From positions 124,001 through 188,000 of the forward strand of contig NC_013422.1 in the NCBI RefSeq assembly GCF_000024765.1: a DNA stretch of 64,000 bases, written 5' to 3'. Of this stretch, positions 22,952-58,836 are shown piece by piece (position 1 is the first letter of the stretch; each line of letters begins with the position of its first letter). A program made the translations under genes and the position numbers. The notes beneath the pieces were generated by a model, which saw only the letters and a program-made list of their open reading frames with translations, was not told the origin of the DNA and searched no databases. This stretch comes from Halothiobacillus neapolitanus c2. Its GTDB lineage: Bacteria > Pseudomonadota > Gammaproteobacteria > Halothiobacillales > Halothiobacillaceae.

Positions 22952-23060
22952 GGAAGCTCGAAAAACCCGTCATTCCCGCGTAGGCGGGAATCCGGCGCCT
23001 TGATTATTCTGGGTTCCCGCTTTCGCGGGAACGACGAATCACGGATATTTCGAGGTGCCC
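22952..23060 (+). repeat. 109-bp non-autonomous inverted-repeat element, copy 1
   Basis: The element runs from GGAAGCTCGAAAAACCCGT to ACGGATATTTCGAGGTGCCC, whose ends are imperfect inverted repeats. Inside are two perfect hairpins with 8-bp stems and 4-base loops: ATTCCCGC/GCGGGAAT at 22972-22991 and GTTCCCGC/GCGGGAAC at 23013-23032. The reverse complement of 52285-52393 has the same length and differs at eight positions by my count. There is no coding capacity. Confidence 0.85.
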
Positions 23061-50195: not shown

Positions 50196-50966
50196 TCAAA
50201 TCGCCGAATAGCTCCAGCCTTCACGAATCCGTTGGGCAACCTGCTCCACCGCTGAGGACGTGACCCGAACATTAGGCAATAACGCCGCTTTTTGTCCGCT
50301 TTCCTCAAGGTTTTTCAGGCTTGTGCCGCACACCATGAAGTGCAGGTTCGGGTACTTCTTCATCAAGGCTTCGATCTGTTTCGCATAGGGCGACGTATCT
50401 GCCCGCAGGAAGTTAAGCCCATCCGAATTGGCGAGCACCTCCATCTGGAAACCAGGCTGATGAGCCGAGGTTTTCATCACATGCTCAATCCTGTTCAGGG
50501 TTTCTGTGAATTTCCGGGGGGAGTCGGAACCCAGTCGAAGGATGACGTTGCGAGTCTGGGCGGTCGGCGCGCTTGCAAATTCGACATTCTGAATCTGATT
50601 GTTGGCTTGAAGCATGGTTGCGGCATGAGCGCCATCGGTATCGGCAGAAGATATTTTGCTCGCAAACCAACCAGCCAGTGCGCCGACGCTCAGCAGCGCC
50701 ATCGCGGCCAATGCGCCGGGAAGCAGAGCGTGAATCCGCCAATTTGCCTTGGTGTGAGGTGGCTCGGGTACGATCTCATAGGCCTCTTTGATCCAGTCTT
50801 GAACCTGATCGATGTCGCAGATCAATTGCGTCAGTTCCGGGTTTTTCTTCACGTGCTCACGGACGCGCTGCCGGTCTTCGTGAATCAGTTCATCATCGAT
50901 GAACGCATTGATTTCCTCGACGGAGATGGATGTATCTTGGTGTTCGTTTTGCTGAGCATGTTTCAT
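50196..50966 (-). CDS. Transmembrane anti-sigma factor with a periplasmic DsrE-like domain
   Basis: Residues about 14-65 resemble an anti-sigma domain (VEEINAFIDDELIHEDRQRV) without the zinc HxxxCxxC motif. One TM helix lies near 82-104. The periplasmic portion (about 130-254) looks DsrE-like: VILRLGSD start, MEVLANSDGLNFL, and HFMVCGTSLKNLEESG. These align with the exported DsrE-like proteins at 51789 (VEIVAFGPGLRLL, FSACANTIAAMSKKLG) and 58291, including one shared Cys (near residue 213). The ATG overlaps the sigma stop (ATGA) and has GAGGAG upstream. It likely sequesters the sigma factor until a periplasmic sulfur or redox signal acts on the DsrE domain (inference). Confidence 0.75.
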   Translation of the reverse strand: MKHAQQNEHQDTSISVEEINAFIDDELIHEDRQRVREHVKKNPELTQLICDIDQVQDWIKEAYEIVPEPPHTKANWRIHALLPGALAAMALLSVGALAGWFASKISSADTDGAHAATMLQANNQIQNVEFASAPTAQTRNVILRLGSDSPRKFTETLNRIEHVMKTSAHQPGFQMEVLANSDGLNFLRADTSPYAKQIEALMKKYPNLHFMVCGTSLKNLEESGQKAALLPNVRVTSSAVEQVAQRIREGWSYSAI

Positions 50967-51553
50967 ACAACTCTCCTCAGGTGGCACTCGCTTTTGCGGC
51001 GCTCCTCAGTTGCGGCATTTTTCGTTTCGATCAGGAGATTTCGTAAAGACTGGCGGCCACGCGATAGACGGCTCATGATCGTGCCGATCGGCAGGTCGAG
51101 TGTGGTGGCGACTTCCTTATAGGAGAATTCTTCCAGATCGACCAGCGTGACCACAATCCGCTGCATTTCCGGCAAGCGCATCACGGCGCTACGGACGCGT
51201 TCGATCATTTCATCCCGGCCATGCACGCTGTCTGGCGATTGATGCTCGTCGGTTGAGATCGTTTGCTCCATGTCGTCAATGTTCTCGTCGCGAACATGAC
51301 TGCGGACATGATCCATCCACTGATTGGCCAATATGCGGATAACCCAGCGATCCAGAAGTTCTTCATCCCTGAGCTGCGCCTGTTTTTGCAGTGCACGAAT
51401 CATGGCTTCCTGAACCAGGTCTTCTGCCAGATAAGACTCCTTGCACCACGAAAAGGCCAAGCGGTACAGCCGAGGGCGTAGTTGCTCAAGGCGATGATTG
51501 AAGGTCAATCGCCCGAATAGAAATGAGCCAGAAAAAAAGGATGATGGGCCCAC
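50963..51553 (-). CDS. ECF-type RNA polymerase sigma factor
   Basis: A 196-residue sigma-70 family protein with region 2 (EDLVQEAMIRALQ and DRWVIRILANQWMDHVRSH) and region 4 (RIVVTLVDLEEFSYKEVATTLDLPIGTIMSRLSRGRQSLR, the -35-binding helix-turn-helix) but no regions 1 or 3. The predicted start is GTG 51553 with GGGGGG about nine bases upstream. It is cotranscribed with its membrane anti-sigma factor, with a four-base overlap. A candidate self-recognised promoter is at 51625-51652. Confidence 0.88.
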   Translation of the reverse strand: MGPSSFFSGSFLFGRLTFNHRLEQLRPRLYRLAFSWCKESYLAEDLVQEAMIRALQKQAQLRDEELLDRWVIRILANQWMDHVRSHVRDENIDDMEQTISTDEHQSPDSVHGRDEMIERVRSAVMRLPEMQRIVVTLVDLEEFSYKEVATTLDLPIGTIMSRLSRGRQSLRNLLIETKNAATEERRKSECHLRRVV

Positions 51554-51582
51554 TGTTTTTTACCCCCCGATTAAATGGATTC

Positions 51583-51629
51583 TAAGGAACCTCTGATTAA
51601 TTCAGAGCTTCCCTGATTAAATTAGAGAC
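51583..51629. repeat. Palindromic repeat TAAGGAA-CTCTGA...TCAGAG, with extended half
   Basis: TAAGGAACCTCTGA, five bases, then TCAGAGCTTCC form an imperfect palindrome, followed by GATTAAATTAGAGAC that matches the other half of the ligA copy. The right end of the repeat contributes the -10 element of the sigma operon promoter candidate. Confidence 0.6.
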
Positions 51630-51652
51630 GGAATCCACTTGAGTTTTATTCC
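51625..51652 (-). promoter_or_regulatory. Candidate ECF-sigma promoter of the sigma/anti-sigma operon
   Basis: On the minus strand GGAATAAA (51652-51645), N14 and CGTCTC (51630-51625) have the layout of ECF promoters (GGAAT-like -35, CGTC-like -10, 16 bases between hexamers). The same pattern with identical spacing drives the divergent DsrE-like gene. Confidence 0.6.
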
Positions 51653-51697
51653 AAGAGTAATCTCGAAAATTCAAATTGGCGCATTAATTTCATCAAT

Positions 51698-51725
51698 GGA
51701 ATAAATAAAAAAATACACGCGTCTC
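51698..51725 (+). promoter_or_regulatory. Candidate ECF-sigma promoter of the exported DsrE-like gene
   Basis: GGAATAAA (51698-51705), N14 and CGTCTC (51720-51725), identical in both motif and spacing to the minus-strand promoter 45 bases away. The start codon of the DsrE-like gene is 63 bases beyond the -10. Confidence 0.6.
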
Positions 51726-51788
51726 CTCAATAGCCCCGAGCAAATAACGGCGGCAGAAAAACAAATATTTCACCAAAGAGGAAAACCC

Positions 51789-52268
51789 ATGATTCGTCTT
51801 CGACAAAAAATCGTTATGACCGCGCTCTTGCTTGGGCTGATCGGCACCGCGCCAACAGTCATGGCAAATCCAGCCGCGGAACCCGTTTCGCAAGCTGTTC
51901 AGGATAAACCATTTGCCGAGGCGCGCGTGGCCTTGCAAATCAGCGATGCGGCTGGGCCTAAGCAACAGTTGGTGCTCAATGTGGCCAGTAATCTGATCAA
52001 GTTTTACGGCGCGGACAAGGTTGATGTGGAGATCGTCGCCTTCGGGCCGGGGCTGCGTTTGCTGTTCAAAGACAACGCCCTGGGCGATCAGATTCAATCG
52101 CTGGCGGCCGAAGGCGTGCGGTTTAGTGCCTGTGCCAACACGATTGCAGCCATGTCCAAAAAACTGGGGTATGAACCGGAATTGAATCCCGAAGCGCGCA
52201 TTGTGCCTGCTGGCATCGTGCGTTTGGTGCAATTGAACAAGGCCGGATTTTTTGTTTCGCGTCCTTGA
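51789..52268 (+). CDS. Exported DsrE-like protein
   Basis: A 159-residue protein with a signal peptide (MALLLG-type core, cleavage near VMANPAA) and a DsrE/DsrF-like fold: VALQISDAAGPKQQLVLNVA, VDVEIVAFGPGLRLLF and GVRFSACANTIAAM with a conserved Cys. DsrE relatives relay sulfane sulfur or bind thiols; whether this copy does is unknown. GAGG is upstream of the ATG. It is divergent from the sigma/anti-sigma operon, whose anti-sigma carries a related domain, and shares its promoter motif. Confidence 0.78.
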   Translation: MIRLRQKIVMTALLLGLIGTAPTVMANPAAEPVSQAVQDKPFAEARVALQISDAAGPKQQLVLNVASNLIKFYGADKVDVEIVAFGPGLRLLFKDNALGDQIQSLAAEGVRFSACANTIAAMSKKLGYEPELNPEARIVPAGIVRLVQLNKAGFFVSRP

Positions 52269-52284
52269 GCATCAATCCACGCTA

Positions 52285-52393
52285 GGGCACCTCGAAATAC
52301 CCATGATTCGTCGTTCCCGCGAAAGCGGGAACCCAGTAAAACCAAGGCGCTGGATTTCCGCCTATGCGGGAATGACGGGTTTTTCGAGCTTCC
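52285..52393 (-). repeat. 109-bp inverted-repeat element, copy 2 (inverted relative to copy 1)
   Basis: The reverse complement matches 22952-23060 over all 109 bases with eight differences by my count, including both internal hairpins and the CTCGAAAAACCC/CCTCGAAATA ends. It separates the DsrE-like gene from the porin gene. Confidence 0.85.
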
Positions 52394-52451: not shown

Positions 52452-53756
52452 ATGAATAATAATATAAGAATATTGCCATCTGCCGTGTCGAAGAAAATCC
52501 TAATCGCTGGATTATGCAGTGGCCTGCTTATTGCCGCGCCTAATGCCTTTTCCGCCAACTGGATTATGTTGCAGGGTACGGAAAAACCTGGCATTGCACC
52601 GCCGGTCAAGTTGTGGGGGTTCATCCAGCCGACCTATCAGAAGGATTTCAGCAGCTCGTACAATGGAAAGTACGTGCCGCCGAAATTGATCGGCCCCAAT
52701 CTGGACTCCCAGTCGTCATTCAACATCATGCGTGCGCGCATCGGGGTGCGCGGCGCGCCGTTTTTCCTGGACGATAAGGTCAATTACTTTCTACTGACCG
52801 AGTTCGGCGACAACGCGATGACCGATGGCGGCCGTTATGGCAGTTACCGGCCCACGTTGACCGACGCCAGCGTGACGCTCAACTACATCAAGGGGGCCCG
52901 CATCCGGTTGGGCCTGTTCAAGTATCCCGGTGCCGAAGAGGGGCTACAGGGTATTGGCAGTCTAAATTACATCAACTATACCGACGTCACCAATCAGATG
53001 TTGTTGGAACGCTTCCCGGATGCCGGCGACAAGAATATTCCGCCTCAGTCCACCCCGAATGCAGATATGAATGCTTTTTCCAATCCGGCGACGGGTTTCC
53101 GTGATGTCGGCGTACAAGTCTTCGATGCGTTCGACGTGGGCAAGTGGGAACACACCTACGCGGTGATGCTGGGCAATGGCAGCGGCGTGCGGATGTCTGA
53201 CGGCAATGCCAGCAAGGATGTTTATCTGTACTGGTCGTCGGCGTATCTGTTCGATAAGAAAAACAAGGGGCCGATGAGTCCAAGCGTCAAGATGTTTTCC
53301 TGGTATCAGAGCGGCAAACGCACCAATGCCTACAACACGGCTCAGGAGCAGGATCGCAAACGCTATGGCGCGGGTGTGACCTACCTCAAGAAACCCTACC
53401 GCGTGACGGCAGAGTACATGTGGGGGAAGGGCATGATTTACCAGGGCGCAAACAACCCGCAAACCCTGTTCAACGATTACAAGGCCAACGGGGGCTATGT
53501 TGAGGGCGGCTGGTTCATCCCCAATACGAAGTGGGAGCTGGATCTGCGATACGACCGCTACCAGCGCAACGTCGATTTACCCACCCAAACCCGGTTCAGC
53601 ACCTGGACAGCGGGGGTGCAATATCATTTCACACCCAAAACCCGTGTCACACTCGATTACGCCATGCGGCGTTACAGCTCGGATGTGGTGCCTCAGAACA
53701 ATCAGCTTCAGGATGTTGGCGGCCGTTTGGCGCTACAGGTGACGGCTATCTTCTAA
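52452..53756 (+). CDS. Outer-membrane porin
   Basis: A 434-residue protein with signal peptide (cleavage near AFSA) and beta-barrel features: KLWGFIQPTYQKDF and IMRARIGVRG early, alternating strands, and a C-terminal LQVTAIF ending in Phe. It looks like the phosphate-selective porin (OprO/P) family without known specificity. AAGGA precedes the ATG. It follows the DsrE-like gene beyond a 109-bp repeat, so co-transcription is uncertain. A strong terminator (53822-53859) lies inside the convergent GGDEF gene. Confidence 0.78.
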   Translation: MNNNIRILPSAVSKKILIAGLCSGLLIAAPNAFSANWIMLQGTEKPGIAPPVKLWGFIQPTYQKDFSSSYNGKYVPPKLIGPNLDSQSSFNIMRARIGVRGAPFFLDDKVNYFLLTEFGDNAMTDGGRYGSYRPTLTDASVTLNYIKGARIRLGLFKYPGAEEGLQGIGSLNYINYTDVTNQMLLERFPDAGDKNIPPQSTPNADMNAFSNPATGFRDVGVQVFDAFDVGKWEHTYAVMLGNGSGVRMSDGNASKDVYLYWSSAYLFDKKNKGPMSPSVKMFSWYQSGKRTNAYNTAQEQDRKRYGAGVTYLKKPYRVTAEYMWGKGMIYQGANNPQTLFNDYKANGGYVEGGWFIPNTKWELDLRYDRYQRNVDLPTQTRFSTWTAGVQYHFTPKTRVTLDYAMRRYSSDVVPQNNQLQDVGGRLALQVTAIF

Positions 53757-58290: not shown

Positions 58291-58836
58291 ATGCATCACA
58301 CAAAATCAATTCAAATACTCGGCCTGGCCGGTCTGCTCGGCTTGTCCGTTGTGTTGCCTGTCAGTGGTTATGCCGCCCCACCGGAGCATGCCGCCCATGT
58401 CGATGTCGCGGCACTGACCAAAGCCGCAAACTATCCCGAGGCCGAGTCGATTGCCGCCATCAAGGCAAAAACTGCGGATGTCAAAGCACGCTACGTGTTG
58501 CAGATCAGTGACGCCGATGCGCAAAAACGCGGCATGGATATGAAAGTGGCATCCCACCTGCTCAAGTATTACGGCAAGGGCAAAGTAGACGTAGAAATTG
58601 TCGCGTTCGGTCCGGGTCTCAAGCTCTTGTTGGCGGAAAACAACCCACAAGCGCCGATGATTGCCAAGTTGAGTGCCGAAGGTGTCCGTTTCTCTGCCTG
58701 CGGAAATGCCATTCACCACGCGACGCAGATGCTGGGCTACGCGCCCAAATTAGTTCCGGCAGCGCGCGTCGTGCCTGCGGGCATCGTTCGAGTGCATGAT
58801 CTGGCTGTAGCCGGGTATTTTGCCGACAAACCTTGA
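58291..58836 (+). CDS. Exported DsrE-like protein (second copy)
   Basis: A 181-residue protein with signal peptide (SGYAAPP) and a DsrE-like fold. VDVEIVAFGPGLKLLL and GVRFSACGNAIHHAT with the conserved Cys match the copy at 51789. This copy has a longer linker after the signal. GAGGAG lies upstream of the ATG at 58291; an upstream TTG would remove the signal sequence. I saw no GGAATAAA-N14-CGTCTC pattern in the 93 bases upstream, so it may not belong to the same sigma regulon. Confidence 0.78.
   Translation: MHHTKSIQILGLAGLLGLSVVLPVSGYAAPPEHAAHVDVAALTKAANYPEAESIAAIKAKTADVKARYVLQISDADAQKRGMDMKVASHLLKYYGKGKVDVEIVAFGPGLKLLLAENNPQAPMIAKLSAEGVRFSACGNAIHHATQMLGYAPKLVPAARVVPAGIVRVHDLAVAGYFADKP

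Follow-up and report, generated by a model that had tools for sequence, protein, structure and literature searches.

The locus considered here raises the question of which genes are controlled by an ECF sigma factor whose operon faces a gene for an exported DsrE-like protein, and of what kind of signal such a system may respond to. It lies in the window, i.e. the whole 64,000-nucleotide stretch of Halothiobacillus neapolitanus c2 that was analysed, within a genome that consists of a single contig of 2,582,886 bp and whose nearest named relatives belong to Halothiobacillus and Guyparkeria. The sigma factor gene (50963..51553, minus strand) encodes 196 amino acids from a GTG start at 51553, preceded by a GGGGGG Shine-Dalgarno-like stretch, and its product matches PF04542 (48.5 bits, cut-off 24) and PF08281 (52.9 bits, cut-off 25.7); it is of the ECF type, being a short protein with sigma-70 regions 2 and 4 and without region 3. 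The gene for a membrane anti-sigma factor of 256 amino acids (50196..50966, minus strand) overlaps it by 4 bp, and the gene for the exported DsrE-like protein of 159 amino acids (51789..52268, plus strand; signal peptide at 51789-51866, about residues 1-26) is transcribed in the opposite direction. These three genes and their divergent arrangement are as an earlier sequence-only reading of this DNA had described them. That reading set the boundaries of the unit at 50196 and 52268, of which the latter falls short, since the gene for an outer-membrane porin (Porin_O_P; 52452..53756, plus strand; PF07396, 57.7 bits, cut-off 20.9) follows dsrE and is part of the unit in relatives.

About 33 of the fetched loci contain a homologue of this porin, in most cases as the gene immediately following dsrE, and this adjacency indicates that the unit is a sigma/anti-sigma operon facing a dsrE-porin operon, longer than first proposed. 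The arrangement is variable: in two loci (L120 and L126) it is the porin gene that diverges from sigma, and in another (L047) all four genes point the same way, in the order dsrE-porin-sigma-anti-sigma. Two further loci (L123 and L128) carry two sigma/DsrE-anti-sigma operons in tandem, with one dsrE gene divergent and another downstream, and, as another recurrent neighbourhood, a GroEL gene (L121 and L137), a glnE-like gene (L122 and L129) or both stand beside the system in several genomes with no adjoining dsrE. At L144:2289-4460 (minus strand) the gene divergent from sigma encodes a distant SoxB-like protein of the 5'-nucleotidase family (724 amino acids) and has a matching promoter site. 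Within the window, a palindromic repeat, CGTTCCCGCGAAAGCGGGAAC, is located between dsrE and the porin gene (52312-52332, plus strand), and a second exact copy lies 29 kb away (23013-23033, minus strand). The window also contains a second exported DsrE-like gene (58291-58836, plus strand), which shares 51% identity with the gene at 51789 and is situated after an argB-like gene.

With regard to transcription, the same candidate promoter, GGAATAAA-N14-CGTCTC, precedes both operons, at 51625..51652 on the minus strand for sigma/anti-sigma (letters GGAATAAAACTCAAGTGGATTCCGTCTC) and at 51698..51725 on the plus strand for dsrE-porin (letters GGAATAAATAAAAAAATACACGCGTCTC), and both sites are conserved in relatives. 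The identity of the two motifs, their opposite strands and the 45 bases between their -35 boxes had been stated correctly beforehand, and a search of all 2,582,886 bp of the genome returned these two sites only, both at the divergent promoters. The expected count in the shuffled window was 0.00 and the reversed pattern had 0 sites in the whole genome; these null counts, together with the retention of the motif in relatives, rule out a chance origin, and since the spacers of the two copies differ, the pair is not a duplicated inverted repeat either. A search allowing one mismatch gave 59+45 matches against 42+47 for the reversed control, so that no further targets can be claimed in this genome. 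No GGAATAAA-N14-CGTCTC site precedes the second exported DsrE-like gene, and the whole-genome search found none before the sox genes of this organism, which suggests a local regulon of just two operons.

Comparison of neighbourhoods, which had been proposed as a check on the promoter pair, located the head-to-head sites at the same place in relatives of the family, and the motif faces itself at the equivalent locus across many genera; two genomes (G012 and G019) even possess a second dsrE-porin unit, each with its own motif copy. In a wide set of loci, examined within 450 nt of the gene, GGAATA-N15-17-CGTC occurs upstream of 44 of the 56 sigma genes and of 28 of the 45 dsrE genes, for which 0.04 and 0.08, respectively, are expected in shuffled sequence. 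Similarly, GGAATAA-N14-15-CGTCT is present at 52 sites in 24 genomes with the system (5 for the reversed pattern in the same genomes) and at 4 sites in 24 SoxB-positive control genomes without a full-length anti-sigma factor of the DsrE type. The conserved promoter pair, the high proportion of sigma and dsrE genes with a site and the rarity of the motif in genomes that lack the system make it very probable that both the sigma operon itself and the dsrE gene are driven by this sigma factor, as had been suggested, and the wiring in terms of gene order and promoter pair is strongly supported by these sequence comparisons. It is conceivable that another ECF factor acts at the dsrE promoter motif and that the adjacent sigma gene is uninvolved, given that elements resembling GGAAT/CGTC may be recognised by further ECF factors and that the ECF26 factors of Sinorhizobium meliloti cross-activate one another (PMC6180224), but the motif and the system co-occur across genomes and in many genera the two sites stand face to face at this locus, which leaves this explanation very improbable.

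How the sigma factor may be held in check, and what may release it, depends on its partner. The N-terminal half of the anti-sigma protein is homologous to the anti-sigma regions of other ECF systems in searches of the class and the phylum. Its own Pfam and NCBIfam matches were set aside as a basis for its identity, all of them, including zf-HC2 at 14 bits, being below cut-off and uninformative. A transmembrane segment is placed at 50661..50729 (minus strand; about residues 80-102) by a hydropathy maximum of 2.02 at residue 80, with a predicted helix at residues 86-104 of low confidence. The protein thus has the layout of a membrane-bound anti-sigma factor, namely a gene overlapping the 3' end of the sigma gene, an N-terminal domain, one transmembrane helix and an extracytoplasmic domain, and is a putative inhibitor that would bind the sigma factor. 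The earlier account had recognised it as the operon partner and had missed what its extracytoplasmic part (50199..50555, minus strand; residues 138-256) resembles. The window protein gives no PF02635 match and no significant Pfam match after the transmembrane helix. Its C-terminal part matches DsrE-family genes by sequence, one of them in the window genome, and alignment of this domain with the exported dsrE family by hhalign (E 3.8e-12, 109 columns) brings the cysteines of the two into register. Cys213 of the anti-sigma factor (codon 50328..50330, minus strand), a cysteine in 56/56 homologues, aligns with Cys115 of the exported protein (codon 52131..52133, plus strand), a cysteine in 45/45 dsrE genes near such systems. 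Furthermore, the domain profile matches PDB 1L1S with an E of 2e-12, and the AlphaFold model (pLDDT 76-93 after residue 140) matches the same structure in Foldseek (E 4.9e-9, TMt 0.87). By sequence, profile and predicted fold, then, the extracytoplasmic part of the anti-sigma factor is DsrE-like.

The exported protein scores 17.6 bits against PF02635, below the cut-off of 22.7, and its profile matches 1L1S (E 8.6e-11); its AlphaFold model has a pLDDT of 89.7 and finds 1L1S, DsrEFH and TusBCD in Foldseek. Both proteins can accordingly be placed in the DsrE fold superfamily on the grounds of profile and fold matches to solved structures and a conserved cysteine. Neither DsrEFH nor TusBCD in the strict sense is present at the locus, as these consist of three cytoplasmic subunits encoded together and the gene here is a single exported one beside a porin.

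In a tree of both kinds of domain, those of the anti-sigma factors mostly stand apart from the dsrE genes, and 3 changes suffice to explain the pattern against 35 in shuffles, which argues for an old and rare fusion and not a recent one. A single origin was not upheld, since the tree needs 3 changes and a few fusions are possible. A diverged anti-sigma homologue in a betaproteobacterial genome (L088) passes the Pfam DsrE cut-off, with 31.7 against 22.7 bits. The C-terminal domain of this protein (L088:3977-4663, plus strand) is nearer to exported DsrE genes (E 1e-27) than to other anti-sigma domains (E 1e-10), and by this sequence likeness it may represent a separate fusion. Another homologue (L041:765-1478, plus strand) lacks, in frame, about 24 N-terminal anti-sigma residues.

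The presence of two such domains at one locus also allows them to be understood as partners, with the DsrE domain of the anti-sigma factor sensing no small molecule itself but offering a surface on which exported DsrE docks in mixed oligomers, and with the exported protein as the true sensor. The homology of the two domains, the periplasmic location predicted for both and the adjacency of the genes in most loci speak for this, and according to PDB titles the DsrE-fold proteins DsrEFH and TusBCD form mixed oligomers; on the other hand, about a third of the loci read outside the Halothiobacillaceae have no dsrE gene nearby and yet Cys213 is invariant, so that docking is rather unlikely.

The nature of the signal was approached through the distribution of the system. 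A class-wide sample of 369 Gammaproteobacteria genomes included 65 with the full-length anti-sigma factor, in about 40 families, and SoxB, a component of thiosulfate oxidation, was present in 64 of these 65 as compared with 86 of the 304 without it (Fisher p 1.9e-28, a value that is not corrected for shared ancestry); the single genome with the anti-sigma factor and without SoxB was G081. In addition, the motif is located 47-50 nt before soxB in three genomes (G106, G230 and G335), before soxX in two (G106 and G192, the latter with soxY following) and in front of further dsrE genes in two more (G182 and G270). Other sites, found once or in one genus, precede ribosomal protein S1-like, NUDIX-like, PstS-like, COX1, TPR and HAD genes and were regarded as chance or unproven, as were some sites in system-bearing genomes with no sensible gene behind them.

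The association with SoxB and the motif before sox and dsrE genes point to sulfur oxidation rather than to envelope stress, the function under which the locus had initially been labelled. In that interpretation the anti-sigma factor would sense envelope damage or redox imbalance, and DsrE and the porin would be remodelled under stress, which is in line with the common role of ECF systems with membrane anti-sigma factors, as known from the family, with porins as common envelope-stress targets and with the fact that DsrE and the porin both act in the envelope. However, almost all genomes of the class sample that carry the system also bear SoxB, the only recurrent extra targets found are soxB, soxX and more dsrE genes, and no typical envelope-stress targets were present among the recurrent motif sites examined. 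From gene content, a general envelope-stress system is therefore unlikely, and the label is weaker than a sulfur-responsive one.

A related view concerns what takes place at the cysteine. Since oligomerisation is another possible role of DsrE domains, Cys213 might respond to oxidants or to nothing. It has to be considered that the DsrE domain cysteine responds to an oxidant such as peroxide, hypochlorite or disulfide stress, the exported DsrE acting as a sacrificial or repair thiol protein. That each of the two proteins has just one invariant cysteine on the periplasmic side would suit such a role, as would the gene for a DsbH-like thioredoxin behind one motif site in G151, but the tight association with Sox metabolism and with soxB promoters speaks against it, and we consider oxidant sensing quite unlikely.

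Taken together, the locus is probably, though by no means certainly, an autoregulated ECF sigma/anti-sigma switch for sulfur-compound metabolism in which a periplasmic DsrE domain would control the sigma factor. The cytoplasmic N-terminal domain of the anti-sigma factor would tether the sigma factor to the inner membrane, and a periplasmic reactive sulfur species (sulfite, persulfide/sulfane sulfur or a thiosulfate intermediate) would be sensed by modification of Cys213, either directly or by sulfur passed on from another carrier. Once modified, Cys213 would allow the sigma factor to be freed and to start transcription, at GGAATAAA-N14-CGTCTC, of the operon that encodes it and of the dsrE-porin operon facing it. 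The porin would admit the substrate through the outer membrane and the exported DsrE protein would bind or carry sulfur through Cys115; given the homology between its domain and that of the sensor, it may also damp the sensor. In certain other lineages soxB, soxX and further dsrE genes would be transcribed from this promoter as well. In this scheme, sulfur sensing via Cys213, release of the sigma factor and the handling of the same compound by DsrE and the porin are what we infer from family knowledge and genome association.

The regulators' sensing of external sulfur has been described as poorly understood (PMC11582611), and how anti-sigma factors sense sulfite has been named as an open question (PMC6527743). 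In this regard, the DsrE-anti-sigma fusion with one invariant cysteine provides a concrete sensor candidate in oxidisers that drive the sulfur cycle, and a candidate regulator of dsrE-porin operons, and in some lineages of sox genes, for about 40 sampled bacterial families; the system may thus be how sulfur-oxidising bacteria sense sulfur outside the cell. If this is true, the sensor and its sulfur-carrier output share one fold. By its domain composition, the DsrE-domain anti-sigma factor appears to be a variant of ECF systems for which no description was found in the literature searched, a search of titles and passages that had the main ECF classification papers outside its range. The broader proposal of a so far undescribed and widespread ECF class in Sox-type oxidisers, with a fused DsrE persulfide/sulfite sensor and with the homologous exported DsrE and a porin as main output, joined in some lineages by sox genes, stands at about even chances.

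Among known systems, the closest likeness is with RpoE4-EcfR4 of S. meliloti and SigE of Starkeya novella, ECF26 factors that respond to sulfite and drive sorT and sorAB, respectively (PMC3511301, PMC6527743). The consensus of the sorT and sorA promoters is -35 GGAAT and -10 CGTC (PMC6527743) and the mapped rpoE4 promoter reads TCATGGAATAAGCGAGGCAGCTCGCTCGTCTCTACGCCG (PMC6180224), so that the GGAATA and CGTC elements found here, with their spacing, agree with the ECF26 consensus (PMC6180224, PMC6527743) and the pattern GGAATAA-N15-CGTCT is that of the mapped rpoE4 promoter (PMC6180224). The systems also share a sigma/anti-sigma operon that is autoregulated (rpoE4), a link to inorganic sulfur compounds, and an anti-sigma factor with a cytoplasmic domain, a transmembrane helix and a periplasmic domain. 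They differ in that the C-terminal domain of the sulfite-responsive anti-sigma factors of S. meliloti has been likened to RsiW (PMC6180224), whereas the periplasmic domain here is DsrE-like and not of the COG5662/RsiW-like kind, and in that their targets are sulfite dehydrogenases, as opposed to dsrE-porin here and sox genes elsewhere. As the S. meliloti anti-sigma factors, going by their description, lack a DsrE domain, the sulfite precedent is not simply transferable to a DsrE sensor. The window sigma factor is 39% identical (E 4.7e-27) to a pSymA ORF taken as RpoE6/SMa0143 of S. meliloti, an ECF26 member, and its best plasmid matches are sigma genes, some of them with neighbours of the kind reported for ECF26 (S8 peptidase, DUF305-YncE). 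In a small tree the four ECF26-type plasmid sigma rows grouped in a clade that excluded the DsrE-type rows, and a strict assignment was not reached; by analogy the system would work like ECF26, with a different anti-sigma domain.

An ECF factor that positively controls a sox gene cluster is also known from Arcobacter butzleri (ECF sigma-2, AB1044), although this is an epsilonproteobacterium with a broad and different regulon, and the paper names neither DsrE nor ECF26 (PMC3445524). As regards fold and profile, MTH1491 (PDB 1L1S), YchN, ST0148, DsrEFH and TusBCD resemble the anti-sigma domain as well as the exported protein, which are distinguished from them by a predicted periplasmic location and by occurring as a single exported protein or fused to an anti-sigma factor. 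Finally, sulfane-sulfur sensing controls thiosulfate oxidation in Hyphomicrobium denitrificans through SoxR and sHdrR (PMC10451225, PMC12423496); these are cytoplasmic ArsR-type repressors, whereas the candidate described here is a membrane anti-sigma factor with a putative periplasmic sensor.
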